NCBI RefSeq assembly: GCF_004187715.1
Contig: NZ_QZWF01000005.1
Location: forward strand, 248,001-312,000
Direction of reading: 5' to 3'
Length of the DNA stretch: 64,000 bases
DNA from: Streptomyces sp. F001
Lineage (GTDB): Bacteria; Actinomycetota; Actinomycetes; Streptomycetales; Streptomycetaceae
Under the pieces are notes generated by a model. The model was not told the origin of the DNA, made no database searches, and saw only the letters and a program-made list of their open reading frames with translations. Shown piece by piece: positions 46,367 to 58,930 of this stretch. Position 1 is the stretch's first letter; each line of letters starts with the position of its first letter. Both the position numbers and the translations under genes were made by a program.

Positions 46367-47635
46367 TCAGCGGACCGTCCGGTCCCCGTCCCCCTTCTTC
46401 TTCACCGGTGTCCGTGACAGGAACAGGCCGAACACCGGAGGCTTGGCCTGGAGCATTTCCAGGCGGCCGCCGTCGGCCTCCGCCAGGTCGCGGGCCACGG
46501 CCAGGCCGATGCCCGTGGAGTTGTGGCCGCTGATCGTCCGCTCGAAGATCCGGGCGCCCAGGTCGGCCGGGACGCCGGGACCCTCGTCGGTGACTTCGAT
46601 GACCGCCTGGTTGCCGGTGACGCGGGTGCGCAGCGCCACCGTGCCGCCGCCGTGCATGAGGGAGTTCTCGATCAGCGCCGCCAGCACCTGCGCGACCGCG
46701 CCCGGCGTGCCCACCGCCTGGAGGTGCCGTTTGCCGGAGCTGACGATGGCGCGGCCGGCGCTGCGGTAGGCCGGGCGCCACTCGGCGACCTGCTGCTGGA
46801 TGACCTCGTCGAGGTCGAAGGTGACGGCGGAGCCGGTGCGCGGGTCGCGGGAGTTGGTCAGCAGCCGCTCGACGACGTCCGTGAGGCGTTCCACCTGCGT
46901 GAGCGCGATGGTCGCCTCCTCCTTCACGGTGTCCGGGTCGTCGGTGAGGGTGATCTCCTCCAGGCGCATGGACAGCGCGGTGAGCGGGGTGCGCAGCTGG
47001 TGGGAGGCGTCGGCGGCCAGCCGGCGCTCCGCCGTGAGCATGCGGGCGATGCGCTCGGCGGAGGCGTCGAGAACGTCGGCGACGCGGTCCAGCTCGGGGA
47101 CGCCGTACCGCTTGCGGCGGGGCCGGGGGTCGCCGGAGCCGAGGCGTTCGGCGGTTTCGGCGAGGTCGGTGAGCGGTGAGGCGAGGTGGTTGGCCTGGCG
47201 CAGGGCGAGCAGCACCGCGGCGATCACGGCCAGCAGCGCCACCGCCCCGATGATCATCAGCGTCCGGCCGACCTCCCGGGTCACCGCCGAGCGCGGCTCC
47301 TGGACGGTGACCGTCTCGCCCTCCTCGCCGGTGCGCGTCGCCTCGATGACGTCGCCCGAGGGCTTCTCGCCGACCTCGATCGGCTTCTGGCCGGGGATAC
47401 GGACGACCGCGTACCGTTCGTCGCCGACCTGGTCGGCGAGTATCTCCGAGGTGATCTGCTCGGCGCCGAGGATCCGGCTGTCCACGATGCTGGCCAGCTG
47501 CACGGCCTCGGACTCCACGCGCTCCTGGGCGGTGGTGCTGATCGTCTTGGTCTCGACCACGACGAGGGAGACGCCGAAGACGGCGATCACGACGAGCACC
47601 ACGGCGAGCGTGGACTGGATCAGTCGACGGCGCAT
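46367..47635 (-). CDS. Sensor histidine kinase
   Basis: 422 residues: helix 1 (IQSTLAVVLVVIAVFGVSLVVV), an extracytoplasmic sensor of about 100 residues, helix 2 (TLMIIGAVALLAVIAAVLLAL) and HAMP. HisKA follows with ADASHQLRTPLTALSMRLEE, then HATPase (ALIENSLMHGGG, VTDEGPGVP, GHNSTGIGLAVARDLAEADGG). It phosphorylates the response regulator encoded upstream in the same operon. Signal unknown; the sensor has no cysteines. The 5' start lies 56 bp after the regulator stop. Confidence 0.93.
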   Translation of the reverse strand: MRRRLIQSTLAVVLVVIAVFGVSLVVVETKTISTTAQERVESEAVQLASIVDSRILGAEQITSEILADQVGDERYAVVRIPGQKPIEVGEKPSGDVIEATRTGEEGETVTVQEPRSAVTREVGRTLMIIGAVALLAVIAAVLLALRQANHLASPLTDLAETAERLGSGDPRPRRKRYGVPELDRVADVLDASAERIARMLTAERRLAADASHQLRTPLTALSMRLEEITLTDDPDTVKEEATIALTQVERLTDVVERLLTNSRDPRTGSAVTFDLDEVIQQQVAEWRPAYRSAGRAIVSSGKRHLQAVGTPGAVAQVLAALIENSLMHGGGTVALRTRVTGNQAVIEVTDEGPGVPADLGARIFERTISGHNSTGIGLAVARDLAEADGGRLEMLQAKPPVFGLFLSRTPVKKKGDGDRTVR

Positions 47636-47691
47636 TTTTCTTACTTACTTGTAGGGAAAGCTGTAGCTCGGCCTCATGTGGAAGCCGCGGC

Positions 47692-48369
47692 TCAGCTCTT
47701 CTCGAAACGGAAGCCCACCCCGCGCACGGTCGCGATGTACCGGGGGTTGGCCGCGTCGTCGCCCAGCTTCTTGCGCAGCCAGGAGATGTGCATGTCGAGG
47801 GTCTTGGTGGACGACCACCAGGTGGTGTCCCAGACCTCGCGCATCAGCTGGTCGCGGGTGACCACCCGCCCGGCGTCCCGGACCAGGACCCGCAGCAGGT
47901 CGAACTCCTTGGCGGTGAGCTGGAGCTCTTCCTCGCCCATCCAGGCGCGGTGCGACTCGACGTCGATGCGCACGCCGTGCGTGGCGGGCGGCTGCTGGGG
48001 CTCGGCGGCGCCGCGCCGCAGCAGGGCCCGGACCCGGGCGAGCAGCTCGGCCAGCCGGAACGGCTTGGTGACGTAGTCGTCGGCGCCCGCGTCGAGCCCG
48101 ACGACGGTGTCGACCTCGTCGGCGCGTGCGGTCAGGATCAGGATCGGCACGGTGTGGCCTTCGGCACGCAGTCGGCGGGCCACCTCGAGACCGTCCATCC
48201 CGGGCAGGCCGAGGTCCAGCACGACCAGGTCGACGCCGCCCTGGAGTCCTGCGTCGAGCGCGGTGGGGCCGTCCTGACGCACCTCGACCTCGTAGCCCTC
48301 CCGGCGCAGCGCACGAGCCAGCGGTTCCGAGATGGCAGCGTCGTCCTCGGCGAGCAGTACTCGGGTCAT
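47692..48369 (-). CDS. OmpR-family response regulator
   Basis: 225 residues: receiver domain with the acidic pocket (LLAEDDAAI), phospho-Asp in VVLDLGLPGMDGL, ILTAR and Lys in YVTKPF, and a C-terminal winged helix (LTAKEFDLLRVL, TLDMHISWLRKKLGD, RYIATVRGVGFRF). It would be phosphorylated by the kinase encoded next. Possible targets include the divergent peptide transporter. ATG at 48369 has little ribosome site. Confidence 0.93.
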   Translation of the reverse strand: MTRVLLAEDDAAISEPLARALRREGYEVEVRQDGPTALDAGLQGGVDLVVLDLGLPGMDGLEVARRLRAEGHTVPILILTARADEVDTVVGLDAGADDYVTKPFRLAELLARVRALLRRGAAEPQQPPATHGVRIDVESHRAWMGEEELQLTAKEFDLLRVLVRDAGRVVTRDQLMREVWDTTWWSSTKTLDMHISWLRKKLGDDAANPRYIATVRGVGFRFEKS

Positions 48370-48592
48370 GAGGAGATGGTAGTCCGCGCCCGACAAGTGC
48401 CGGAGGCCGATCGCAGGGCCCGGATTCTTACCTTCGGGCGTACTGGTACGAACCTATGACTGAAGGGTGCGATCCTGGAAAGGACCTTCGAATGGGTGCC
48501 TGCGGTTCCACCGACACCTGTGATCCCTGTCTCAAGTCCTTCCATATCCGGTAGTGTCATGACGTATGGTGATGGAACGCCTGTAACACCCA

Positions 48593-48826: not shown

Positions 48827-50338
48827 ATGGCGTCCAGCCTGACGAAGGACTCGGCCTCCCCGGGCAACCCCGGCTCCGAGAAGACCTTCTTCGGCCACCC
48901 CCGCGGTATGGCCACGCTTTTCATGACGGAGATGTGGGAGCGCTTCTCCTGGTACGGAATGCGCGGCATTCTCGTCCTCTACTTGATCGCGGGTGTCCTC
49001 GACGGCCCCCTGGCGGGCCGGGAGGCCCTGGCCGCCTCGATCTACGGTGTGTACAACGCGGTCGTGTACATGGCCGCCATGCCGGGCGGCTGGGTCGCGG
49101 ACCGCCTCTGGGGTGCCCGCAAGGCCGTGCTGGTCGGCGGCATCGTCATCGCCCTGGGCCACTTCACGCTGGCGATCCCCTCCGACGCCGCCTTCTTCTG
49201 CGGTCTCGGCCTGATCGCGATCGGCACCGGTCTGCTGAAGCCGAACATCTCCGCGATGGTCGGTGGCCTCTACGAGGGCCAGCCCAGCGCCCGCCGCGAC
49301 GCCGGCTTCACGCTCTTCTACATGGCGATCAACATCGGCGGCATGGCCGCCCCGCTGGTCGTCGGTTACCTCGGCGAGAACGTCAACTGGCACCTCGGCT
49401 TCGGTGTCGCCGGTATCGGTATGACCCTCGCCGTGATCCAGTACGTCCTCGGCGGCCGCCACCTCGGCGACATCGGCAAGCAGCCCGGCACCCCGGCCTC
49501 CCCGGAGGAGAAGCGCGCCGTGCTGCGCAAGGTCGCGTTGTGGAGTGGCATCGCCGTCGCGGCGCTGGTCCTGGACATCGCGCTGGGTACGTACGACATC
49601 GAGCACATTGTCAACGTGCTCGCGGTCCTCGGCATTGTGATCCCGATCGTCTACTTCGTGACGATGTACCGGAACCCGGCCCTGACCAGCGAGGACAAGC
49701 CCAAGATCCAGGCCTTCGCCTGGTTCTTCGCCACCGCCGTGCTGTTCTGGATGATCTACGACCAGTCCGGTTCGCTGCTGACGATCTTCGCGGACACCAA
49801 GACCGACCGTACGATCGGCGGCTGGGAGTTCCCGGCGTCCTGGTACCAGTCCGTGAACCCGGCCATGGTCATCGTGCTCGCCCCGCTCTTCGCCGCTCTG
49901 TGGGTGAAGTTGGCCCAGCGCAACCGTGAGCCCAGCACGCCCATGAAGTTCGCCCTGGCGATGCTCCTCATCGGTGGCTCGTTCGGCATCATGGGCCTGG
50001 CCGGCGCCGCCGCCGCGAACAGCGACACCGGCAAGGTCACCGTCTTCTGGCTGCTGAGCGTCTACCTGGTGCAGACCCTCGGCGAGATGTGCCTGTCGCC
50101 GGTGGGCCTGTCCCTGTCGACGAAGCTGGCGCCGAAGCAGTTCGTGGGCCAGATCATGGGTCTGTGGTTCCTGGCCACCGCGACGGGCAATGCCCTCAAC
50201 GGCTGGACCACCAAGCTCAACGCGCCGCTGGGCGACGCGGTCTACTACACGATGTGGGCCATCATCGCCGTCGCGGCCGGACTGGCCTTCATGACGGCGG
50301 GCCGCAAGATCCGCGCGCTCATGGGCGATGTGAAGTAG
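48827..50338 (+). CDS. POT family di/tripeptide transporter
   Basis: 503 residues with about 14 helices. Family signatures are MTEMWERFSWYGMRGILVLYL (the ExxERFxYY-like motif with Trp) and GTGLLKPNISAMVGGLY. The PTR2 signature is FYMAINIGGMAAPLVVGYLGE. It takes up small peptides with protons. ATG with AAGGA 7 nt upstream. A 17-bp stem terminator follows. Confidence 0.93.
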   Translation: MASSLTKDSASPGNPGSEKTFFGHPRGMATLFMTEMWERFSWYGMRGILVLYLIAGVLDGPLAGREALAASIYGVYNAVVYMAAMPGGWVADRLWGARKAVLVGGIVIALGHFTLAIPSDAAFFCGLGLIAIGTGLLKPNISAMVGGLYEGQPSARRDAGFTLFYMAINIGGMAAPLVVGYLGENVNWHLGFGVAGIGMTLAVIQYVLGGRHLGDIGKQPGTPASPEEKRAVLRKVALWSGIAVAALVLDIALGTYDIEHIVNVLAVLGIVIPIVYFVTMYRNPALTSEDKPKIQAFAWFFATAVLFWMIYDQSGSLLTIFADTKTDRTIGGWEFPASWYQSVNPAMVIVLAPLFAALWVKLAQRNREPSTPMKFALAMLLIGGSFGIMGLAGAAAANSDTGKVTVFWLLSVYLVQTLGEMCLSPVGLSLSTKLAPKQFVGQIMGLWFLATATGNALNGWTTKLNAPLGDAVYYTMWAIIAVAAGLAFMTAGRKIRALMGDVK

Positions 50339-50351
50339 CCGTACGCCCCTG

Positions 50352-50389
50352 GGAAGGGCCGCCGCACCCCACGGTGCGGCGGCCCTTCC
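50352..50389. terminator. Bidirectional hairpin terminator
   Basis: Arms GGAAGGGCCGCCGCACC and GGTGCGGCGGCCCTTCC (17 bp, loop CCAC) lie between convergent POT (stop 50338) and the LAETG surface protein (stop 50393). Confidence 0.85.
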
Positions 50390-50392
50390 GCG

Positions 50393-51784
50393 TCAGCGCA
50401 CCCGCCGTCCCGGCAGGAACGTGAGCACCGCGCCGCCCAGCAGGATCACCGTGCCCGCCACCAGGCCGAGAGCCTTCAGGCCGCCGTGGTCCTCGGCGCC
50501 TGTCTCGGCGAGGCCGCCGTCGGGAGAGGTGCCGCCCGACGTGCCGCCGGATGTCGAACCGCCGCCGGAGGCACCGCCTGCCTGTTCGGTGGTGTCCAGG
50601 GTCAGCGAGACCTCGGTCTTGGCCGGTGTGCACGTGGTGGTGGTGCCCAGCGCCTCGATCGTCAGAACGCCGGGGGACAGGGTGGACTCACCGCTCGCGC
50701 CCGGCTTGTAGGTGCCGGTCAGGTCGGGGATCTCGATCGGGTCACCCGCCTTGATGGCCTCGGGGTTGGTGGGGCCCTCGACATGGACCGTGCCCGTGTC
50801 GGCACCGCCGAGCACCACCTCCATGGACGGCTTGACCGAGTCCTTCGGGATGTCGGCCGGGCTGTCCATCACCGACTTCTTGAACTGCACGGTGAGGTCG
50901 AAACTCCCGCCGTCCTTCTTCGCGTTGATCTGCACCGGCGAGGTCGCGTTCTTGTCGCCGATGGGCGTCTTGCACTCGTAGGGGACCTGGACCTCCTTGC
51001 CGGTGAAGTCGGTCTGGCCGCCGCCTCCGCCGCCCGTGCCCGACGAACTGCCTCCGCCCGTCTCGCTCTCGCTGGGCGTCGGCGTCGGCGTCGGGCTCGA
51101 CGACCCCGTCGGCAGACCGGTCGGCACACTCGTCGGCAGTGTCGGGACGACGGTCGGCAGGCCTCCCGTCGTACCGCCCGAAGTCCCGCCCCCGTCCGTC
51201 ACCTTGATGGTCGCCGCCGGCTGCACCGTCTCCTTCGGGGAGCACTTGGTGTCCGTCGAGATCGGCTTGTTTACGTTGATGTTGTACGCGTCCGGGGTCA
51301 GGGACACCTCGCCCGGCGCCGTCAGCTTCAGTCTGCCCTTCATGTCGGACAGCTTCATGTCGCTGTTCTTGGGGATCGGCGGATTCTGCCGGGGCCCCTC
51401 CATCGCGACCTCGGCCGTCTGCGCGCCGGCCGCCTTCAGCGTGCCGGTCGGCTGGACCGTGTCCTTCTCCAGATCGAGGATGTCGGGGTTCTTGGACGCC
51501 GCCTGGACGAACTTCCAGACGATCTCCACCTCGTCCCCGACCTTCGCCTCCGCGGGGGCGGTGATCTCCACCTTCGTCGTCCCCTGGACCGGCGGCAGCC
51601 CGGAGATCGAGGGCGGGATGCACTCGGTCGCGTACGACACCTCCGCGGCCTGCGCGGGCCCGGCGGCCACGCCGAGCAGGACACCCGCCCCGCCCAGCAT
51701 CAGGGCGACGCCCACCGCTGACGTTCTGCTTCCCCGAGGACGACCACGTCGGCCGACCGGTGTGACTCTCCTTCTCTCGCTCAC
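50393..51784 (-). CDS. Secreted two-domain surface protein with LAETG sorting signal
   Basis: 463 residues: N-terminal signal peptide (SAVGVALMLGGAGVLLGVAAGPAQA) and domain 1 (about 50-200, Cys at ECIPPS and KCSPKE). A Thr/Pro/Ser-rich linker follows. Domain 2 (about 265-390) has YECKTPIGDK, LGGADTGTVHVEG, TLSPGVLTIEALGTTTTCTP. A Gly/Ser linker leads to LAETGAEDHGG (425-429), a hydrophobic helix and GRRVR. LAxTG is the sortase E-type signal of Streptomyces, so it is probably wall-anchored. GTG start, GGAAGGGA upstream, overlapping the previous gene by GTGA. Confidence 0.85.
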   Translation of the reverse strand: MSERRRVTPVGRRGRPRGSRTSAVGVALMLGGAGVLLGVAAGPAQAAEVSYATECIPPSISGLPPVQGTTKVEITAPAEAKVGDEVEIVWKFVQAASKNPDILDLEKDTVQPTGTLKAAGAQTAEVAMEGPRQNPPIPKNSDMKLSDMKGRLKLTAPGEVSLTPDAYNINVNKPISTDTKCSPKETVQPAATIKVTDGGGTSGGTTGGLPTVVPTLPTSVPTGLPTGSSSPTPTPTPSESETGGGSSSGTGGGGGGQTDFTGKEVQVPYECKTPIGDKNATSPVQINAKKDGGSFDLTVQFKKSVMDSPADIPKDSVKPSMEVVLGGADTGTVHVEGPTNPEAIKAGDPIEIPDLTGTYKPGASGESTLSPGVLTIEALGTTTTCTPAKTEVSLTLDTTEQAGGASGGGSTSGGTSGGTSPDGGLAETGAEDHGGLKALGLVAGTVILLGGAVLTFLPGRRVR

Positions 51785-52848
51785 GTCGTTCCCTTCCTGG
51801 AGGGAGTCGTAGGACTCGTCGGGCTGTCGTCGTGCGGTGCGGAGAGCCGACCGGCCGTGCCCGGATCGGCGTCCGGGGTGAACCACGGCAGGGTCGAGGT
51901 CGATACGGGCGCCTGCTCGCGCGAGGTCAACCGCGGCAGGCGCAAGGTGAGTTCGGGCAGTCGCAGGCCCCGGTGACGGGCGCCGCCCGGCCGGGGTGGG
52001 CGGACCCGGTCCACCACGGCCATCCCGATGCGGAACACCGCGGCCGGTACGACCAGGCACACCAGGACCCAGAACAGGGTCACGCCCCACGGCCGGCCCA
52101 CGCCCCAGGGCTGCTCGGCGAGCACCTTGCCGCCGTACTTCAGCGAGACGGTGTAGTCGCCGTGCGCCCCGGCCGCCAGCTCCACCGGCAGCCTGATCTG
52201 CGCCTTGCGGCCGGGCTCGATGGTGCCCCGCCACTGCTGCTCCTCCCACTGCGGGGCGAACACACCGTGCGAGGTGCCGACCTGGAAGACCGGGTTCCTG
52301 ATCGCCGAGGTGCCGACGTTGCCGACGGTGAAGACGAGGGTGCGGGCGGGGGGCGCCCCGAACCAGGTGAGCAGTCCGCTGGAGCCGTCCAGCCGGGTGT
52401 CGTTGAGCACCGACAGCCGGCCACCCGCCGGTTCCGCGGGCAGCGGTTCGACGGCGTGCCCGGCGACCTGGAAGATCGCGTCGGCCTGCGCCTTCGCCCC
52501 GGTCACGGTGGCGACGTGCACCACGCACGGGCACGGCACCGGCGGCTCGGCGACCGGCAGCTCCTTGCGGAAGCGGCCCTCGGCGTCGGTCGTGACGGCC
52601 CGGCCGTCGGCGTTGGCGCAGGAGTTGGTGCCGCCGATCACGCCCCGGGACGGCACCGACTGCCCGCAGACCAGGATCATCAGCAGCGCCCGCTCCCGCC
52701 ACCCGCTGCCGGTCACGGTGACCGAACCGCCGGTTCCTGTCTGGGACTTGGACAGCTTCACGGTGGGCCCGTCGGCGGCAGTGGCCGGCGCGAGGGGCAC
52801 GAGGAGCAGCGCAAGTGCCGCAATCAGCACAGGGATCCGCGTCTTCAC
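51781..52848 (-). CDS. Secreted protein with beta domains and C-terminal membrane helix
   Basis: 355 residues with a signal peptide (IPVLIAALALLLVPLAPATAA). Immunoglobulin-like beta segments follow (VKLSKSQTGTGGSVTVTGSGWRERALLM, FTVGNVGTSAIRNPVFQVG). Four cysteines include PCPCVV. One helix (VTLFWVLVCLVVPAAVFRIGMAVV) then precedes a cytoplasmic tail of about 75 residues. GTG start, coupled by GTGA overlaps to the gene before and after. No named family recognised; probably membrane-anchored. Confidence 0.72.
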   Translation of the reverse strand: MKTRIPVLIAALALLLVPLAPATAADGPTVKLSKSQTGTGGSVTVTGSGWRERALLMILVCGQSVPSRGVIGGTNSCANADGRAVTTDAEGRFRKELPVAEPPVPCPCVVHVATVTGAKAQADAIFQVAGHAVEPLPAEPAGGRLSVLNDTRLDGSSGLLTWFGAPPARTLVFTVGNVGTSAIRNPVFQVGTSHGVFAPQWEEQQWRGTIEPGRKAQIRLPVELAAGAHGDYTVSLKYGGKVLAEQPWGVGRPWGVTLFWVLVCLVVPAAVFRIGMAVVDRVRPPRPGGARHRGLRLPELTLRLPRLTSREQAPVSTSTLPWFTPDADPGTAGRLSAPHDDSPTSPTTPSRKGTT

Positions 52849-53684
52849 CGCATCGCTCCCGTCAACTCGGCCTGGTCCCACTGGTGTTCCGGCTCACTCT
52901 CGGTCGTACGACGCCTTCGACGTCGTACGACCGCCCCGGCCGCCGCTACGACGATCAGCGCGCCGACCCCTGCCACGCCGCCCCATGGCACGAACCGCGC
53001 CGACGCCTGCGCCGTGTCGCGCGCGCCGCCCGCCGCGGTCACCGTCAGCCGGACGTCCACCGCGTCCAGGGCGGGCCGGTCGGGCCACGGTTCGTCGAGC
53101 CGCACCCGGTGGCCGGGCGGCAGCTGGAGCGGCAGGGTGCGCGGGGACCGGTCGAGGACGGTGCCGAGGACGCCGTCGGCGTGCACGGCGAGGGTCGGTA
53201 CGAGGACCGTCGTACCCCGGTTGACCAGGTCGTACGTGATGCGGTCACCGTCCACGGCCAGGTGCTCGACGGTCAGCGCGGACAGCGTCGGACCGTCGGT
53301 GCGCAGCCGCAGGGGGACGGACCGGGAGCGGCCGTCGCCGTCGCGTACGACGATCGTGCCCGCGCGGTCCTCCGGCACGGCCCCCTCGGGAACGGTCACG
53401 GTGAACGGGATGTCGGCGCGGGTACGGGCGGGCACGCGCACCTCGGCGTCGGCGAAGGTGACCGGGACACCGGTGCCGCGCAGCCGTACGGTGACCGGGC
53501 GTCCGGCACGGTTGGTCACGGACACCGTGTCCTGCAGGGCGGTTCCGGGCGTGCCCTCGGCGTAGAAGGACGGGCGGCCGCCGCCGGCGGGCGCGACGGA
53601 CCAGCCGCCGGCAGCGGTCGCCGTCGGGGCGGCGCACAGCAGGGCGAGGAGGGACAGGCACACGGCACGGGCGGCATACGACAT
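52845..53684 (-). CDS. Secreted protein with WxL/peptidoglycan-binding-like beta domains and membrane anchor
   Basis: 279 residues: signal peptide (RAVCLSLLALLCAAPTATA). Two Ig-like regions follow (WSVAPAGGGRPSFYAEG, DTVSVTNRAGRPVTVRLRGTG; LTVEHLAVDGDRITYDLVNRG), the layout of actinobacterial WxL peptidoglycan-domain proteins. One helix (WGGVAGVGALIVVAAAGAVV) and an Arg-rich tail end it. ATG with GGGAG upstream. First gene of a three-gene coupled operon. Its 5' untranslated region borders the tandem repeat at 53699. Confidence 0.78.
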   Translation of the reverse strand: MSYAARAVCLSLLALLCAAPTATAAGGWSVAPAGGGRPSFYAEGTPGTALQDTVSVTNRAGRPVTVRLRGTGVPVTFADAEVRVPARTRADIPFTVTVPEGAVPEDRAGTIVVRDGDGRSRSVPLRLRTDGPTLSALTVEHLAVDGDRITYDLVNRGTTVLVPTLAVHADGVLGTVLDRSPRTLPLQLPPGHRVRLDEPWPDRPALDAVDVRLTVTAAGGARDTAQASARFVPWGGVAGVGALIVVAAAGAVVRRRRRRTTESEPEHQWDQAELTGAMR

Positions 53685-53698
53685 CGGCGGCTCCCTCA

Positions 53699-53980
53699 AC
53701 GCCTCGTTGAGAAGCGGCGGCGGGTGGCAATCAAGCAGGTGCGGCGCGGAGCGCCTCGTTGAGGGGCGGGGGTCGGTGACGGGTGGGCAGGTGCGGCGCG
53801 GAGCGCCTCGTTGAGGGGCGGGGTCGGTGACGTGGCAGGTGCGGCGCGGAGCGCCTCGTTGAGGGGGGTCGGGTGACGATCAAGCAGGTGCGGCGCGGAG
53901 CGCCTCGTTGAGGGGCGGGGTCGGGTGACGATCAAGCAGGTGCGGCGCGGAGCGCCTCGTTGAGGGCGGGGTCGGGTGAC
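53699..53980. repeat. Six-copy intergenic tandem repeat (48-52 bp unit)
   Basis: The core GCGCCTCGTTGAGG begins at about 53699, 53751, 53803, 53851, 53900 and 53952, spaced 52, 52, 48, 49 and 52 bp. Units carry GCAGGTGCGGCGCGGA before the core and GGGTCGGTGACG-type sequence after it. Each core is a small hairpin (CCTC-GTT-GAGG). It fills the entire gap between the LPQTG gene (stop 54000) and the operon starting at 53684. Confidence 0.9.
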
Positions 53981-53999
53981 GGGCGGCATACCGGCACGG

Positions 54000-54689
54000 T
54001 CAGCGGCGGACGCGTACCGCCTGGTTCCGGCGTGTCAGCCACAGCGCGCCCGCCGCGCCCGCGAGCAGGACCGTTCCGCCGAGCGTGCCGAGGGCGATCG
54101 CGGAGTCCTCGGGGCCGGTCTGCGGGAGCTCGGCTCCGGAGTCGCTGCCGCTCTGGGTGCCGGTCGAGCCACCGCCGGCCGCCGCCGTGACCTCGAGGGT
54201 CAGGGACGGTCCGGGATCGTTGCTGGGCGTGCAGGTGGTGGTCGTACCGAGGGCCTTGATGGTGAGTACGCCCGCCGTGAAGGTGACCTTGCCCGTCTTC
54301 TTCGGGGTGTAGGTGCCGGACAGGTCGTTGATCTTGATCGGGGTGTCGGCGGGGATCGCTTCCTGGTTGGCGGGGCCGGTGACCTTCATGGTGCCGCTGT
54401 CGGCGCCGCCGAGTTCGATGGTGGCGCTCGGGTTCATCGCACCCTTGCCCAGTTCGACGGGGCTGGAGGAGACGCCCTTCTGCCAGGACATGGTGATCTT
54501 GTAGCCGCTGCCGCTCTTGACGCCCTTGATGTCGATCGGCGAGACGGCACTCTTGTCACCGATCGGCGTCTTGCACTGGTAGTTGACGTCGACGACCTCG
54601 GCGTGGGCCGTCGGGGCGGCGAGCAGCACCGCCGAGCCGGCCAGGGCCGCGGCGGACGCGAGCGCGGCGGTTCGTTTCCGGTACGACAT
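54000..54689 (-). CDS. Secreted single-domain surface protein with LPQTG sorting signal
   Basis: 229 residues: signal peptide (AALASAAALAGSAVLLAAPTAHA) and one copy of the domain found in the LAETG protein (YQCKTPIGDK, LGGADSGTMKVTGPANQEAI, GVLTIKALGTTTTCTP, Cys at both ends). A Gly/Ser linker, LPQTG at 188-192, a helix and a basic tail complete it. Classical LPxTG signal. Clear paralogue of the 463-residue protein. Upstream is 157 bp of promoter-like gap. Confidence 0.87.
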   Translation of the reverse strand: MSYRKRTAALASAAALAGSAVLLAAPTAHAEVVDVNYQCKTPIGDKSAVSPIDIKGVKSGSGYKITMSWQKGVSSSPVELGKGAMNPSATIELGGADSGTMKVTGPANQEAIPADTPIKINDLSGTYTPKKTGKVTFTAGVLTIKALGTTTTCTPSNDPGPSLTLEVTAAAGGGSTGTQSGSDSGAELPQTGPEDSAIALGTLGGTVLLAGAAGALWLTRRNQAVRVRR

Positions 54690-54846
54690 CGTCCCCTCAT
54701 TCCTGACGGCACATCAGATCGGCCGTCAAGGTACGCCCGGGGAGTTGAGGAGGGAAGACGCGGAGCACGCCGGAGTTGTGACGATCCGGCGTGCGTGTGG
54801 TGACGTACGAAGAGGGGTTCGAACCCCGGGTAACCCCAGACGGGCG

Positions 54847-55368
54847 TTACGCGGGCGCTCCGAGTTCGGCCCACACCGTCTTGCCTGCGACGCCGGGCGT
54901 GCGCACGACCCCCCAGTCCAGGCACAGGCGCTGGACGATGAACATGCCATGGCCGCCGGGACGGCCGGCGCGGTGCGGGGTGCGCGGGGCCGGCTGCCCC
55001 GTCCCCCGGTCGGAGACCTCGATACGGATCACCTTGTTGTCGCAGGCGATCCACATCCCGTCCGGGCCCTCCGCATGGAGACACGCGTTGGTGACCAGCT
55101 CGGAGACGACGAGCAGCACGTCCTCGGCGGCGGCCCGCTGGTCCGCGGTGGCGGCCGGCAGCCAGCCCCACGCGTACAGCGCCTGGCGGGCGAAGTCGCG
55201 GGCGAGCGGGACGACGCCGCTCGCGCCGTCGAAACTCAGCCTGCGGGCCTGAGGCCCCGCCGACGACACGGACGCCCCGGCCCCTGACGCGCCCCCCTCG
55301 GACGCCCCGGAAGCACCGCTGGGCTCCGGGCCGCGGTCGCCCGGCGAGTAGGACCGGGTGGTGCTCAT
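54847..55368 (-). CDS. Anti-sigma factor ATPase (SpoIIAB/RsbW-like)
   Basis: The 173-residue protein has a disordered acidic/Ser-rich N-terminus of about 55 residues and a GHKL ATPase domain: VLLVVSELVTNACLHA (N box), IEVSDRGTGQPAPR (G1) and GGHGMFIVQRL (G2). In partner switching it binds a SigB-family sigma and phosphorylates the STAS antagonist. Located after the STAS gene, with sigma divergent. In S. coelicolor the corresponding genes are next to sigI (recalled). Confidence 0.85.
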   Translation of the reverse strand: MSTTRSYSPGDRGPEPSGASGASEGGASGAGASVSSAGPQARRLSFDGASGVVPLARDFARQALYAWGWLPAATADQRAAAEDVLLVVSELVTNACLHAEGPDGMWIACDNKVIRIEVSDRGTGQPAPRTPHRAGRPGGHGMFIVQRLCLDWGVVRTPGVAGKTVWAELGAPA

Positions 55369-55625
55369 CAGCGCTTCACCTCACCGATTCACCGGTTCAC
55401 GTTTCAAGAGTGCTTTCCGAACACGCGGTGTGCTCAGTGTTCGGTACTCAGTGTGGGTCACACGGTCGGCACGGGTACACACGGCCCGTACACCGCACGC
55501 GGGAAAGTGACCGGTTCGCCCGGTCCGCCGTGCCACCCCCGTCATGATTGCCGCCGACATGTTCAGGATGTCTCCTGCCCGGCCCGACCGTCGGGACACC
55601 CCCTTGTTCGGCACGACCGGCGCGC

Positions 55626-56009
55626 TCAGTCGGACTCGTCCTCACCGGCCAGGGCTGCCTCCACCGAATCGTGGACGGTGAAGACCGCCTCGGCTCCGGT
55701 GATCTCGAAGACGCGGGCCACCACGGGCTGCATGCCCGCCAGATGCACCCCGCCCCCGGCGGCCTCGGCCTTGAGCCGGGCACCCAGCAGCACGTTGAGC
55801 CCGGTGGAGTCGCAGAACTCCAGCCGGGAACAGTCGACGACAAGCCGGCTGAAACCCTTGGCAAGGCATTCCTCGAGTGGTTCACGCAACAGATCGGCAG
55901 TGTGGTGATCCAACTCACCTGCCGGAGTCACGACGGCGCTGGGGCCCTCTTCCCGCACCTCCACCAGAAGCCGGCCCGACTGTGCGCTGCCGACCGTCCC
56001 GTGGTCCAT
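55626..56009 (-). CDS. STAS-domain anti-sigma factor antagonist
   Basis: The 127-residue protein has a STAS domain: VVTPAGELDHHTADLLREPLEE, then LVVDCSRLEFCDSTGLNVLLGA, in which the Ser of CDSTGLN is the phosphorylated residue. Free unphosphorylated antagonist would release the sigma from the anti-sigma. GGGAGAG 8 nt before the ATG. 257 bp separate it from the anti-sigma gene on the same strand. Confidence 0.88.
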   Translation of the reverse strand: MDHGTVGSAQSGRLLVEVREEGPSAVVTPAGELDHHTADLLREPLEECLAKGFSRLVVDCSRLEFCDSTGLNVLLGARLKAEAAGGGVHLAGMQPVVARVFEITGAEAVFTVHDSVEAALAGEDESD

Positions 56010-56258
56010 GCCGTCTCTCTCCCGAGGTCGTGGCTGCTGACGTTTGCCCTCGAACACTACGCCTTCCCTTCGCCCTTCGACAGCCGAACATCCGCCCAGA
56101 AACGGACATTTCCACACAGAGCGGACTTGCGATCGGCTCGGGAAAGCGGGTAGGGCTAGTAGAGACACGCAACCGACACGGCCGGCTTTGGAGGCGCCGC
56201 ACACCGCAGTGCACGTACTGGCTTCGGCAGCCATATGCCGAGAACGATGGAGGACATC

Positions 56259-57206
56259 ATGTCACCCCGGCTCGACGCATCGCATACCCGGACGGCGACG
56301 TCGACACCCCCTCCGGAACATCTGGATCCCATCGAGCACAACGGCGATCACTCCGGCACACTCGCCGTCAGGGACGACGTACTCGCCCTGCAGGACGACG
56401 TACTCGCCGGACTTCCGGAGATCCCCCCGTACGACGAGGTCGGCCCCGTCGATGCACGGGCCCTGTCCAAGACCCTCTTCGAGCGGCTGGAATCCCTCGA
56501 GGAAGGCACACACGAGTACTCGTACGTCCGCAACACGCTCGTCGAACTCAACCTCGCCCTGGTCAAGTTCGCCGCCTCCCGGTTCCGCTCCCGCAGCGAA
56601 CCGATGGAGGACATCATCCAGGTCGGCACGATCGGCCTGATCAAGGCGATCGACCGCTTCGAACTCAGCCGCGGCGTCGAGTTCCCGACCTTCGCGATGC
56701 CCACCATCGTGGGCGAGATCAAGCGCTTCTTCCGCGACACCTCGTGGTCGGTGCGCGTGCCGCGCCGGTTGCAGGAACTCCGCCTCGACCTGGCCAAGGC
56801 CGGTGACGAACTGGCCCAGCAGCTGGACCGCGCCCCCACGGTGGGGGAACTGGCCGAGCGCCTCGGTATCTCCCACGACGAGGTCGTCGAGGGCATGGCC
56901 GCGTCGAACGCGTACACCGCCTCGTCGCTGGACGCCCAGCCCGAGGAGGACGACAGCGAGGGTGCGCTCGCGGACCGGATCGGCTACGAGGACCACGGGC
57001 TCGAAGGCATCGAGTACGTCGAGTCGTTGAAGCCGCTGATCGCCGAACTCCCGCACCGGGACCGGAAGATCCTCTCCCTCCGCTTCGTCGCCAACATGAC
57101 CCAGTCCGAGATCGGCGAAGAACTCGGTATCTCGCAGATGCACGTGTCGCGGCTGCTGTCACGCACGCTGGGGCGACTGCGCAAGGCGCTGACGGTCGAG
57201 GAGTGA
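56259..57206 (+). CDS. sigI: SigB/SigF-type RNA polymerase sigma factor (SigI-like)
   Basis: The 315-residue protein has an N-terminal extension of 60 residues, region 2 (MEDIIQVGTIGLIKAIDRFELSRGVEFPTFAMPTIVGEIKRFFRD), region 3 and region 4 (LPHRDRKILSLRFVANMTQSEIGEELGISQMHVSRLLSRTL). This is the general-stress/sporulation group. Adjacent STAS and ATPase genes make a partner-switch set like S. coelicolor SCO3066-3068 (sigI), recalled not checked. ATG at 56259 chosen because GGAGG lies 5 nt upstream. Confidence 0.85.
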   Translation: MSPRLDASHTRTATSTPPPEHLDPIEHNGDHSGTLAVRDDVLALQDDVLAGLPEIPPYDEVGPVDARALSKTLFERLESLEEGTHEYSYVRNTLVELNLALVKFAASRFRSRSEPMEDIIQVGTIGLIKAIDRFELSRGVEFPTFAMPTIVGEIKRFFRDTSWSVRVPRRLQELRLDLAKAGDELAQQLDRAPTVGELAERLGISHDEVVEGMAASNAYTASSLDAQPEEDDSEGALADRIGYEDHGLEGIEYVESLKPLIAELPHRDRKILSLRFVANMTQSEIGEELGISQMHVSRLLSRTLGRLRKALTVEE

Positions 57207-57228
57207 CGACCGTCCCGCAGTAAGCAAC

Positions 57229-57267
57229 GGCTCGTCGTCCGGCGCCTTCCGGGGCGCCGGACGAGCC
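57229..57267 (+). terminator. Hairpin terminator after sigma gene
   Basis: GGCTCGT...CCGGCGCC pairs with GGCGCCGGACGAGCC (15 bp with a 3-nt bulge), 22 bp past the stop. Confidence 0.7.
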
Positions 57268-57406
57268 ATGCCCGGAAACCTCTCGGTTACCGGGTTGTTG
57301 GCGGAAAGACCTCCCCACGGGCCGCCTTCCACCACTATGGTCACCCGCAAACTGGCCGGTACGTCAGGGATCTTGACCTGTCACGGGGTCACGAGGAGGC
57401 GGGTGG

Positions 57407-58930
57407 ATGGCTCGGGCCGACGGGACCGGCAAGGATGCCGGAGCGGCACCGCACTCCGGCGCGTCCGACGCACGGCTGACGGAACTGCTGCGCGCCGACA
57501 CCGCCACCGCGTATCCGGCCCTCCAGGAACTGCGTGCCCGCCACCGCGCATCGGTTCTCGCCTACGCCCGGCTGTGCACGACGAGCGAGTCCACCGCCCG
57601 GCAGCTCGCGGCACAGGCCTTCACGCTCGCGGCCCGCGAGACGGCCCGCGGCACCGACCCCGCCGTGCCGTTGCGGCACCACCTCCTGCTGCTCACTGTG
57701 CGGGTGGCCACGGACTGGGCCGCGGACGAACGGTCCGCCGGTCTCGACGCGGGTCTGCTGCTGGTCCTGAACACGGCAGGCCCGGTGGGCCCCGTCCCGC
57801 CCATGCTCGCGGCGTACCAGTCCCTGCCGTCCCGCACCCAGGGACAGCTCTGGTACGCGATGGTGGAGCAGGAACCCGACGAGCGCACGGCCACCCTGCT
57901 CGGCCGCACCCGCGAGGACGTGACATACGGCACAGAACCGGCCCTCCAGGCGTTGGGCCGGGCCTGTCTGACGTCCCGGCTCGTGGCCTCCGACGACCCG
58001 CACTGCCGGGACTTCCGCCGGCTCATCGAGGAGGCGGTACGGCCCGACGGCCCACGCCACAGCCCCGACCTGGACGCCCACATGGCGCGCTGCGTGCACT
58101 GCGCCACGGCGTACGAGGAGCTGACCGCCCTGCGCGACTCCCCGCGCACCGCGCTGGCCGAGGGGCTGCTGCCGTGGGCGGGCACGGCGTACGTCACACG
58201 CGACGGCGAGCCGGGCGTCCACCTCCGTATCCGGCAACGGAACCGGCCGCCCTACCGCCGCCTCGCGCTGACCTCCGCGGTACTCGGCGCGGTCCTGGTG
58301 CCGCTGCTGGTCGTCCTGCTCGCACCGGGCGAGACTGTCTCCCAGGACAGGACCGACCCCGGCCCCGTCACCACACCGGTGGCCCCGCCCCCCGTAACGG
58401 TCACGGCGACGGTGTCGGCAAGTCCGCCGACGCCCACCACGAAGTCCCCGTCACCGACGAGGAGTTCGACCCCGCCGCACACTCCGAGCCCGAAGCCCTC
58501 CCCCACGCCTCCGCCGACCCATCCGCCGAGCGGCTCCTACGCCCAGGTCGTGAACGTCGCCTCCGGGCTGTGCCTGGACATCCGCGACGGGGTGATGGAG
58601 AAGGGCACGGATGTCGTCACGGCGCCGTGCGGCGCGTCTTCTACGCAGCGGTGGCGGGTCGATGCGGGACGGGGTGTCGTCCAGTCGGCCGCCGACCCCG
58701 ACTACTGCCTGGACAGCCGCGGCTCCACCGACAAGGGCGTGGGCATCTGGGAGTGCGCGTCGGTCGACGGGAGCAACGGGCAGAACCTGAAGTTCGCGGT
58801 GGGCGGTGACGGGGTGATCCGTCCGGCGGTCGCGGTCGAGACGGCGGTGACACCGGACGGGGACGGCGGCCTGGCGCTGCTGCCGGTGAACGGGGGAAGC
58901 GGACAGCGGTGGCGGGCGGGCGCGCCGTGA
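57407..58930 (+). CDS. Membrane protein joining sigma-like domain, zinc-finger-like motif and ricin-type lectin
   Basis: 507 residues. N-terminal 1-200 resembles ECF sigma regions (LTELLRADTATAYPALQELR..., HTH-like PDERTATLLGRTREDVT). A HxxxCxxC (HMARCVHC, about 226-233) like the zinc site of anti-sigma factors follows. One helix (LALTSAVLGAVLVPLLVVLLA) at about 285-305 precedes a Pro/Thr linker. Residues 380-507 form a beta-trefoil with QRW repeats (GLCLDIRD, TQRWRV, GQRWRAG). Predicted cytoplasmic sigma-like end and outer lectin. GAGGAGG before the ATG. Confidence 0.85.
   Translation: MARADGTGKDAGAAPHSGASDARLTELLRADTATAYPALQELRARHRASVLAYARLCTTSESTARQLAAQAFTLAARETARGTDPAVPLRHHLLLLTVRVATDWAADERSAGLDAGLLLVLNTAGPVGPVPPMLAAYQSLPSRTQGQLWYAMVEQEPDERTATLLGRTREDVTYGTEPALQALGRACLTSRLVASDDPHCRDFRRLIEEAVRPDGPRHSPDLDAHMARCVHCATAYEELTALRDSPRTALAEGLLPWAGTAYVTRDGEPGVHLRIRQRNRPPYRRLALTSAVLGAVLVPLLVVLLAPGETVSQDRTDPGPVTTPVAPPPVTVTATVSASPPTPTTKSPSPTRSSTPPHTPSPKPSPTPPPTHPPSGSYAQVVNVASGLCLDIRDGVMEKGTDVVTAPCGASSTQRWRVDAGRGVVQSAADPDYCLDSRGSTDKGVGIWECASVDGSNGQNLKFAVGGDGVIRPAVAVETAVTPDGDGGLALLPVNGGSGQRWRAGAP

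Follow-up and report, generated by a model that had tools for sequence, protein, structure and literature searches.

A four-gene Streptomyces surface-protein cluster with DUF6801-like domains, two kinds of sorting signal and a WxLIP relative

The window analysed here, a stretch of 64,000 nucleotides from Streptomyces sp. F001 (contig NZ_QZWF01000005.1, positions 248,001 to 312,000), carries a cluster of four genes on its minus strand, from 54689 to 50393. In order of transcription these encode a protein with an LPQTG sorting signal (the LPQTG protein), a WxLIP-like membrane protein, a neocarzinostatin-like (NCS-like) membrane protein and a protein with an LAETG sorting signal (the LAETG protein). 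An interpretation made earlier from the letters alone (the sequence-only reading) had described a surface-protein cluster with a repeated domain at this place. The cluster is real, its genes and frames are as described, and the domain occurs at three places in the genome. The features, in window positions, are the following (Ig, immunoglobulin; pLDDT, predicted local distance difference test; E, expectation value).

54000..54689, minus strand: LPQTG protein (P0002, 229 amino acids), with signal peptide, one DUF6801-like domain, LPQTG sorting signal, hydrophobic stretch and basic tail
54195..54599, minus strand: DUF6801-like domain of the LPQTG protein (AlphaFold2 pLDDT 93.9; hhalign of the wider family to DUF6801, Prob 96.9)
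52845..53684, minus strand: WxLIP-like protein (P0004, 279 amino acids), with signal peptide, two Ig-like regions and C-terminal membrane helix, without a 23-residue loop
51781..52848, minus strand: NCS-like membrane protein (P0003, 355 amino acids), with signal peptide, neocarzinostatin-like domain, membrane-proximal Ig domain, membrane helix and a cytoplasmic tail containing LPWFTPD
50393..51784, minus strand: LAETG protein (P0001, 463 amino acids), with signal peptide, two domain copies, Ser/Thr/Pro/Gly linkers and LAETG sorting signal
51200..51646, minus strand: divergent N-terminal domain copy of the LAETG protein (E 1e-9 to the LPQTG protein)
50579..50992, minus strand: C-terminal domain copy of the LAETG protein (E 1e-44 to the LPQTG protein)
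52845..52848, minus strand: 4-base overlap of the WxLIP-like and NCS-like genes, kept in 49 of 51 loci
51781..51784, minus strand: 4-base overlap of the NCS-like and LAETG genes, with AGGAAGGG ahead, kept in 55 of 57 loci

When the strain's own genome (9.7 Mb covered) was searched with the LPQTG protein, only three places were found at E<=0.001: the protein itself (E 6e-143) and the two copies in the LAETG protein. The C-terminal copy is clear (50% identity) and the N-terminal copy divergent (30% identity), just as had been read from the letters. When 61 copies, taken from this genome and its relatives, are aligned, the cysteines that had been noted at both ends of the domain prove invariant, and the alignment has 12 invariant columns. 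No Pfam or NCBIfam model matched the domain in scans of the four proteins, nor did any Pfam model in a scan of 24 domain copies. Stray Pfam matches of domain copies (E 0.019-0.35) pointed to unrelated families, with one or two members each, and were discarded.

The domain had been called unnamed. This stands insofar as no Pfam or NCBIfam model covers it; profile comparison, however, relates it to a named, uncharacterised family. With 27 distinct distant rows included, the family profile was matched by hhalign to DUF6801 (PF20611; this side of the comparison was built from 22 of 24 loci) with Prob 96.9 and E 1.8e-10; the 114 aligned columns stay in register from the Y.C motif at the N-terminal side to the G..T.T.G at the C-terminal side. 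Reversed alignments gave 3.4 and 2.3, and the best of 100 column shuffles scored 15 as against 64. Control profiles in the same comparison gave 0.7 (WxLIP), 1.1 (WxL), 0.6 and 1.9 (NCS-like) and 0.4 and 0.3 (the Ig domain of P0003). That the domain is a divergent branch of DUF6801, homologous at the superfamily level, is in our judgement well supported by these comparisons. The window proteins themselves nevertheless fall below any Pfam DUF6801 score, and no DUF6801 match was found in the strain's own genome; the Pfam cut-off is passed in 33 of 119 genomes of the order. We know of no characterised DUF6801 member, and no paper using the term was found in the open-licence literature, so the domain has, as far as we know, no match to a characterised family.

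A profile search with the domain, which the sequence-only reading had proposed, gave relatives in 36 of 394 genomes of the class, all of them in the same genus or in one other family (f19, where 21 of 150 genomes have them); a single-sequence search with the LPQTG protein also touched two further genera of the order. Structure prediction, proposed likewise, gave a confident all-beta sandwich (pLDDT 93.9, predicted template-modelling score 0.86). The structure most similar to it is that of 3LSO, a putative membrane-anchored protein from Corynebacterium diphtheriae, with Z 9.2, root-mean-square deviation 3.7, 130 of 135 residues and 18% identity; the next best neighbour reaches Z 6.6. The likeness is one of structure; the sequence search gave no match to 3LSO, and Foldseek with the domain model gave no match at E<=0.001. 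3LSO is called Ig-like in a figure legend of PMC10034466, a paper available to us in part. A heme (HtaA) reading of 3LSO was also considered; the HtaA homologue of the strain's own genome did not match 3LSO. The PDB was also searched by sequence, using three proteins (the LPQTG protein, P0001 and the WxL-type protein), the domain profile and the WxLIP alignment, without useful result; a match of the WxLIP profile to the streptococcal R4 repeat (E 0.0016) covered a short generic stretch and was rejected.

The modules of the cluster are found together in WxL-type loci of other genomes. At L153, L156, L157 and L158 (same genus) and at L144, a secreted protein is built as [domain]-[NCS-like]-[WxL-like C terminus]. 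The Pfam WxL model (PF13731, cut-off 25) scores 27.2 bits at L155 and 24.2 at L144, with partial matches at L153 (16.5) and L157 (17.1). At L155:5984-9831 there are two tandem large proteins that both start with the domain, the first with the Pfam WxL match and the second with TIG. The middle domain of 12 WxL-type proteins aligned by hhalign with the NCS-like domain of P0003 (Prob 96 over 65 columns; four other comparisons gave 0.1-1.8). A WxLIP gene adjoins the domain gene at L144, L153, L157 and L158; the gene caller gave no WxLIP at L156, and L193, another locus of the same place, has one. Of the best 30 WxLIP loci, 23 encode a WxL-like protein next to the WxLIP, and the domain is fused to WxL in 12 (the flanks were about 1.5 kb, and absence in the rest says little). 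None of the four window proteins matches Pfam WxL. Given the shared domain, the NCS-like module and the WxLIP homology, three of the four modules of a WxL-type locus are present in the window cluster, where they are distributed among four genes and sorting signals take the place of WxL.

The homology of P0004 to the WxL-linked WxLIPs has strong backing in sequence comparison: it aligns with the WxLIP of L157 at 36% identity (E 3e-37), and four of its homologues (L144, L153, L157, L158) match PF06030 (WxLIP_PGBD) with 31.5-35.6 bits at a cut-off of 27.3. As read from its sequence, P0004 has a hydrophobic N terminus ending in ATAA and a hydrophobic stretch at about 236-256 followed by RRRRRR, and in its alignment a second Ig-like region lies downstream. 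In Pfam it comes closest to FixG_C, a generic Ig model. Six families were found at E<=0.01 in 28 WxLIP rows, the WxL-linked ones included, and DUF3324/HBD was not among them. P0004 is the sole WxLIP found in its own genome; across the class, 84 of 296 genomes have WxLIP relatives, a count that takes in those of the window type. In comparison with the WxL-linked WxLIPs, P0004 is without a 23-residue stretch (YGADAYNT.RDGGFAVRT..EK in relatives) and without two 12-residue stretches. Counting by regular expression proved noisy, and residues in fixed alignment columns were counted instead: the 23-residue stretch has 0 residues in all 53 window-type loci that passed the coverage filter as against 21-23 residues in all 30 comparison loci, a contrast that may be exaggerated because the comparison WxLIPs are the best matches of a loop-bearing query and not a random sample. 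In AlphaFold models reported in PMC10599100 (seen in part), the WxL sandwich is completed by a hairpin of the WxLIP, whose two domains are braced by a loop of 20 residues. The stretch missing from P0004 may correspond to this loop or to the hairpin.

Two membrane-anchored partners had been assigned to the LAETG gene, and both are present; they can now be distinguished as one WxLIP relative and one protein with a neocarzinostatin-like domain. The latter, P0003, scores 19.2 bits against PF00960 (neocarzinostatin; cut-off 25) and E 2e-7 against NF040680, below the cut-off there too, and PF00960 is found at E<=0.01 in 37 of its 43 orthologues. The model of P0003 is poor (pLDDT 58.7) and usable only for residues 144 to 281, approximately. 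Its membrane-proximal part matches many Ig domains of glycosidases, with nothing specific among them. The tail (51784-52010) carries a motif like LPWFTPD in 54 of 57 loci with the LAETG gene versus 10 of 20 loci without it (one of the 20 is cut by a contig end), and when whole open reading frames (ORFs) are taken, a tail end containing SAP is seen in 55 of 57 versus 3 of 20. The very end of the tail overlaps the ribosome site of the LAETG gene.

Of 293 genomes sampled from the order, 194 have a relative of the LPQTG protein; these relatives are spread over 3 of 9 genera. The Streptomyces locus set comprised 80 of the 270 found; four loci at a contig edge were left out, giving 76 complete loci. 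All four genes are present in 50 of these, 7 are without the WxLIP-like gene only, and 19 have the LPQTG and NCS-like genes only. The WxLIP-like gene is never found without the LAETG gene (0 of 76), and the LPQTG and NCS-like genes are always found together (76 of 76). Of the complete loci, 50 of the 57 that have the LAETG gene thus also have WxLIP, versus 0 of the 19 that lack it (Fisher p 1.7e-12, a value that ignores shared descent), a co-occurrence which suggests that WxLIP is linked to the LAETG protein. Translational coupling to the LAETG gene had also been claimed. Since the 4-base overlaps recur in 55 of 57 (NCS-like to LAETG) and 49 of 51 (WxLIP-like to NCS-like) relatives, and since a ribosome-site-like sequence, AGGAAGGG or AGAAAGGG, precedes the LAETG start in six example loci that we examined, coupling is supported.

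To compare the sorting signals, we took the last such motif within the final 60 residues of each ORF. LP.TG is present in 108 of 110 LPQTG-protein ORFs (LPQTG 102, LPRTG 4, LPETG 1, LPKTG 1), the two others being one with LSRTG and one fragment. LA.TG or LAESG is present in 56 of 57 LAETG-protein ORFs (LAATG 25, LAETG 16, LADTG 12, LAQTG 2, LAESG 1), and the remaining ORF is truncated. The sorting motifs are therefore conserved and split, with LPxTG in one protein and LAxTG/LAxSG in the other. The LPQTG protein passes the NCBIfam model LPXTG_anchor (25.4 bits, cut-off 15.9) and lies just below the Pfam anchor model (19.4, cut-off 20). The accessible part of PMC5148588 reports selective cleavage of LAXTG by class E sortases. 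P0001, as read from its sequence, has the signature of their substrates (LAXTG, hydrophobic stretch, basic tail) and P0002 has LPQTG instead. The strain's own genome has 15 sortase matches, some perhaps fragments of one gene, and none of them lies inside the window. On contig C2 of this genome, near 185110 (L215:472-2283), a weakly NCS-like protein (NF040680 E 1e-6, below the cut-off) with an LAGTG motif is encoded just upstream of a protein with an HtaA domain; NCS-like domains may be a recurrent feature of sortase substrates in this strain.

In family f19, the domain protein adjoins a sortase gene in 7 of 27 places (L145, L146, L147, L148, L152, L160 and L175; three in one genome), and at L152 it stands between two. 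Five of the seven sortases had been chosen by eye to build the model, all five being Pfam-confirmed, and the other two were found by the model; the flanks of most f19 loci were read for about 1.5 kb. These are probably dedicated sortase-substrate pairs. Two of the 27 places have the domain fused to WxL beside a WxLIP. In each of these two, the opposite strand carries a sortase match, and Pfam confirms one of the matches. Thus, one and the same domain accompanies WxL at some loci and a sortase at others. At L144:7567-8346, a sortase gene (Pfam 111 bits) lies divergently beside the WxL-type domain protein and the WxLIP, with WxL and sortase in one locus.

Among known systems, the nearest to the cluster are the csc/WxL clusters of Firmicutes, in which CscA is a WxLIP with DUF916/DUF3324, CscB and CscC are WxL proteins and CscD is a small LPxTG protein. 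According to the accessible parts of PMC1534035 and PMC9772566, such clusters comprise WxL proteins, a WxLIP that has a membrane helix and, in many cases, a small LPxTG protein. Like them, the window cluster encodes surface proteins throughout, among them an LPxTG protein and a membrane-anchored relative of WxLIP (PMC1534035, PMC10599100, each consulted in part). Unlike them, it has no WxL protein that we could find, two DUF6801-like sortase substrates, an additional NCS-like membrane protein and a WxLIP without the loop. Because defining features fail (no WxL protein found, no PF06030 score) we do not file it as a csc/WxL member, yet it shares parts and may work in a like manner. WxL proteins are mostly from Firmicutes (>91% of 938 WxL sequences according to the portion of PMC9772566 available), and among the open-licence papers listed, no title or beginning of an abstract dealt with WxL in Streptomyces. 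Also comparable are the actinobacterial WxL-type loci (L153, L156-L158, L144, L185-L193, L195-L197), which have the same DUF6801-like and NCS-like domains and a homologous WxLIP. They differ in having WxL at the C terminus, no sorting signal ending the proteins that were read, and two genes instead of the four in the window.

There are also likenesses to wall proteins of Streptomyces and Actinoplanes. The SrtE-dependent ones (long chaplins; CwpA, CwpB) have an LAxTG signal, a hydrophobic stretch and a basic tail like P0001 (PMC5148588, PMC13251363), and CwpG, a sortase-substrate candidate, has a neocarzinostatin-like domain (PMC13251363; both papers as far as accessible). Unlike the chaplins, the four proteins gave no match to a chaplin model in the Pfam scan. 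CwpA and CwpB of Actinoplanes were also considered as relatives; the domain profile, run against 394 genomes of the class, had matches in the same genus and in f19 and in no other family. No paper describing the window cluster was found in the open-licence literature, which was searched for WxL in Actinobacteria, sortase substrates and presumed locus tags, and what was accessible of a glycoproteome paper (PMC6593405) could not be mapped to the four genes.

Taken together, the explanation we favour, at a likelihood somewhat above even, is that the four genes encode a surface complex of Streptomyces hyphae derived from, and rearranged out of, an actinobacterial WxL/WxLIP system. In the ancestral type of layout, which other genomes of the genus still have, a secreted [DUF6801-like]-[NCS-like]-[WxL] protein would lie beside a membrane-anchored WxLIP that holds its WxL part. 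In the window cluster WxL would have gone, the DUF6801-like domains carrying sortase signals (LPQTG, LAETG) instead; the NCS-like domain would have gained a membrane anchor of its own and WxLIP would have lost its loops. One lineage thus seems to have swapped WxL for sortase anchoring and kept the other modules. The LPQTG and LAETG proteins would be joined to peptidoglycan and the WxLIP-like and NCS-like proteins would stay in the membrane, so that two wall-anchored proteins and two membrane Ig-domain partners could bind one another across the membrane-wall space, with the WxLIP-like protein perhaps pairing with the LAETG protein. The membrane side might capture or position substrates, and the finished complex would show the DUF6801-like domains at the surface. 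Gene content, homologies, conservation, the loop difference and co-occurrence are observations; the physical complex, the covalent anchoring, the evolutionary direction and any ligand are what we infer here.

Several observations weigh against this derivation. Binding, anchoring and localisation are predictions from sequence, and the direction is presumed to be loss rather than gain. P0004 does not match PF06030, which is found in only 4 of 28 rows, the four WxL-linked ones, and in 0 of 24 window-type rows; the possible exaggeration of the loop contrast belongs here as well. Around L155, the sole protein above the WxL cut-off, 14 kb were read and no WxLIP match was seen. A six-row actinobacterial WxL profile gave no match in the strain's own genome, in a search that had no positive control of its own; a model from the same six proteins finds WxL in 23 of the 30 WxLIP loci. 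WxLIP is absent from 26 of the 76 complete loci and is therefore not essential. In a mirror-tree comparison of 48 loci, the LAETG protein and WxLIP gave rho 0.43 as against 0.24-0.45 with the rest, so that this pair was not singled out. The DUF6801 link is weak when the distant rows are omitted: the 61 window-type copies give 76.6 and single copy types hardly match (3.6, 5.3 and 35.7), which means that the firm link passes through the distant rows. Finally, the LAETG protein matches no curated anchor model (Pfam, NCBIfam). The sortase signals of the sequence-only reading thus hold as conserved motifs, and for the LPQTG protein as a model match; because no such model matches the LAETG protein, the case for a signal there is made by the motif, by the hydrophobic stretch and basic tail, and by conservation. 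The earlier interpretation is thus supported in part, as a conserved cluster of surface proteins with sorting signals.

A further idea, which we consider rather improbable, is that a non-covalent WxL system has turned covalent. The loop-less WxLIP would then dock a DUF6801-like domain, and the LPxTG and LAxTG substrates would go to two layers of one membrane-to-wall bridge, via different sortases or different timing. If true, this conversion would be a new way to couple membrane receptors to two covalently anchored partners.

Equally doubtful, in our estimate, is the possibility that unrelated wall-anchored proteins share an operon and form a hyphal coat, with no complex and no WxL link, P0003 and P0004 being generic Ig-domain membrane proteins. 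It would account for folds that are common sandwiches, for the low-complexity linkers and for a P0004 that stays below PF06030 and has generic FixG_C as its best Pfam match. It leaves aside, however, that the same three modules co-occur in WxL-type loci, that gene retention is nested (50/7/19/0) and that the gene overlaps are conserved. Slightly less likely again is that P0003 and P0004 are a membrane chaperone pair, which would hold substrates and pass them to a sortase as assembly factors outside the final structure. Most Streptomyces sortase substrates have, to our knowledge, no known need for partners, and the conserved cytoplasmic tail of P0003 would not obviously be needed by a chaperone, although the constant pairing of the LPQTG and NCS-like genes in the complete loci, the lack of a sortase inside the window and a proposal that WxLIP stabilises WxL (PMC10599100, from the part available) would all suit such a role. 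A signalling receptor, whose wall-anchored domains sense wall state or a ligand and whose P0003 tail relays to the neighbouring ATPase, STAS and sigma-factor genes, strikes us as very unlikely: the tail motif accompanies the LAETG gene (54 of 57 loci) and an RsbW-like ATPase gene lies near in 79 of 80 loci with STAS and sigma genes following in the window, but where the LAETG gene is lacking, no more than 10 of 20 loci have the motif, the end of the tail also serves the following gene as ribosome site, and neighbourhood alone is weak evidence.

If the cluster does derive from a WxL/WxLIP system, it would give a first functional context in which to place DUF6801-like domains and some of the Streptomyces sortase substrates, and its loop-less WxLIP would serve as a natural experiment on the role of the loop. 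The strict LPxTG/LAxTG split within a single gene cluster offers an easy approach to the sortase specificity of Streptomyces. Possible functions at the surface are adhesion, as in the adhesin or receptor idea of the sequence-only reading, nutrient capture and development. Since SrtE-dependent wall proteins restrain exploratory growth in Actinoplanes (PMC13251363, accessible part), a developmental role may be worth testing.

The surroundings of the cluster were also inspected. Beside it, at 54847-57206, are genes for an RsbW-like ATPase, a STAS protein and a sigma-70 factor; the ATPase gene ahead of the cluster is the one with a match close by in nearly all loci of the Streptomyces set. A search of 50000-58000 for tRNA genes, in which a tRNA-like stretch near 54820 was checked, gave none. 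The protein encoded at 57407-58930 has a ricin-B lectin domain at its C terminus, after a Pro/Thr-rich linker, and its N-terminal part has no Pfam match at E<=0.01. At 46367-48396 are a histidine kinase with a DraK N-terminal domain (PF18092) and an OmpR-type response regulator, which we take to be the DraK/DraR pair. Finally, between the LPQTG and WxLIP-like genes, 53700-53981 is a tandem array of about 5.6 copies of a 52-base unit. Its 24-base core has an exact match in only 2 of 225 loci, both of them this same place, and the array therefore looks peculiar to this strain or its close kin.

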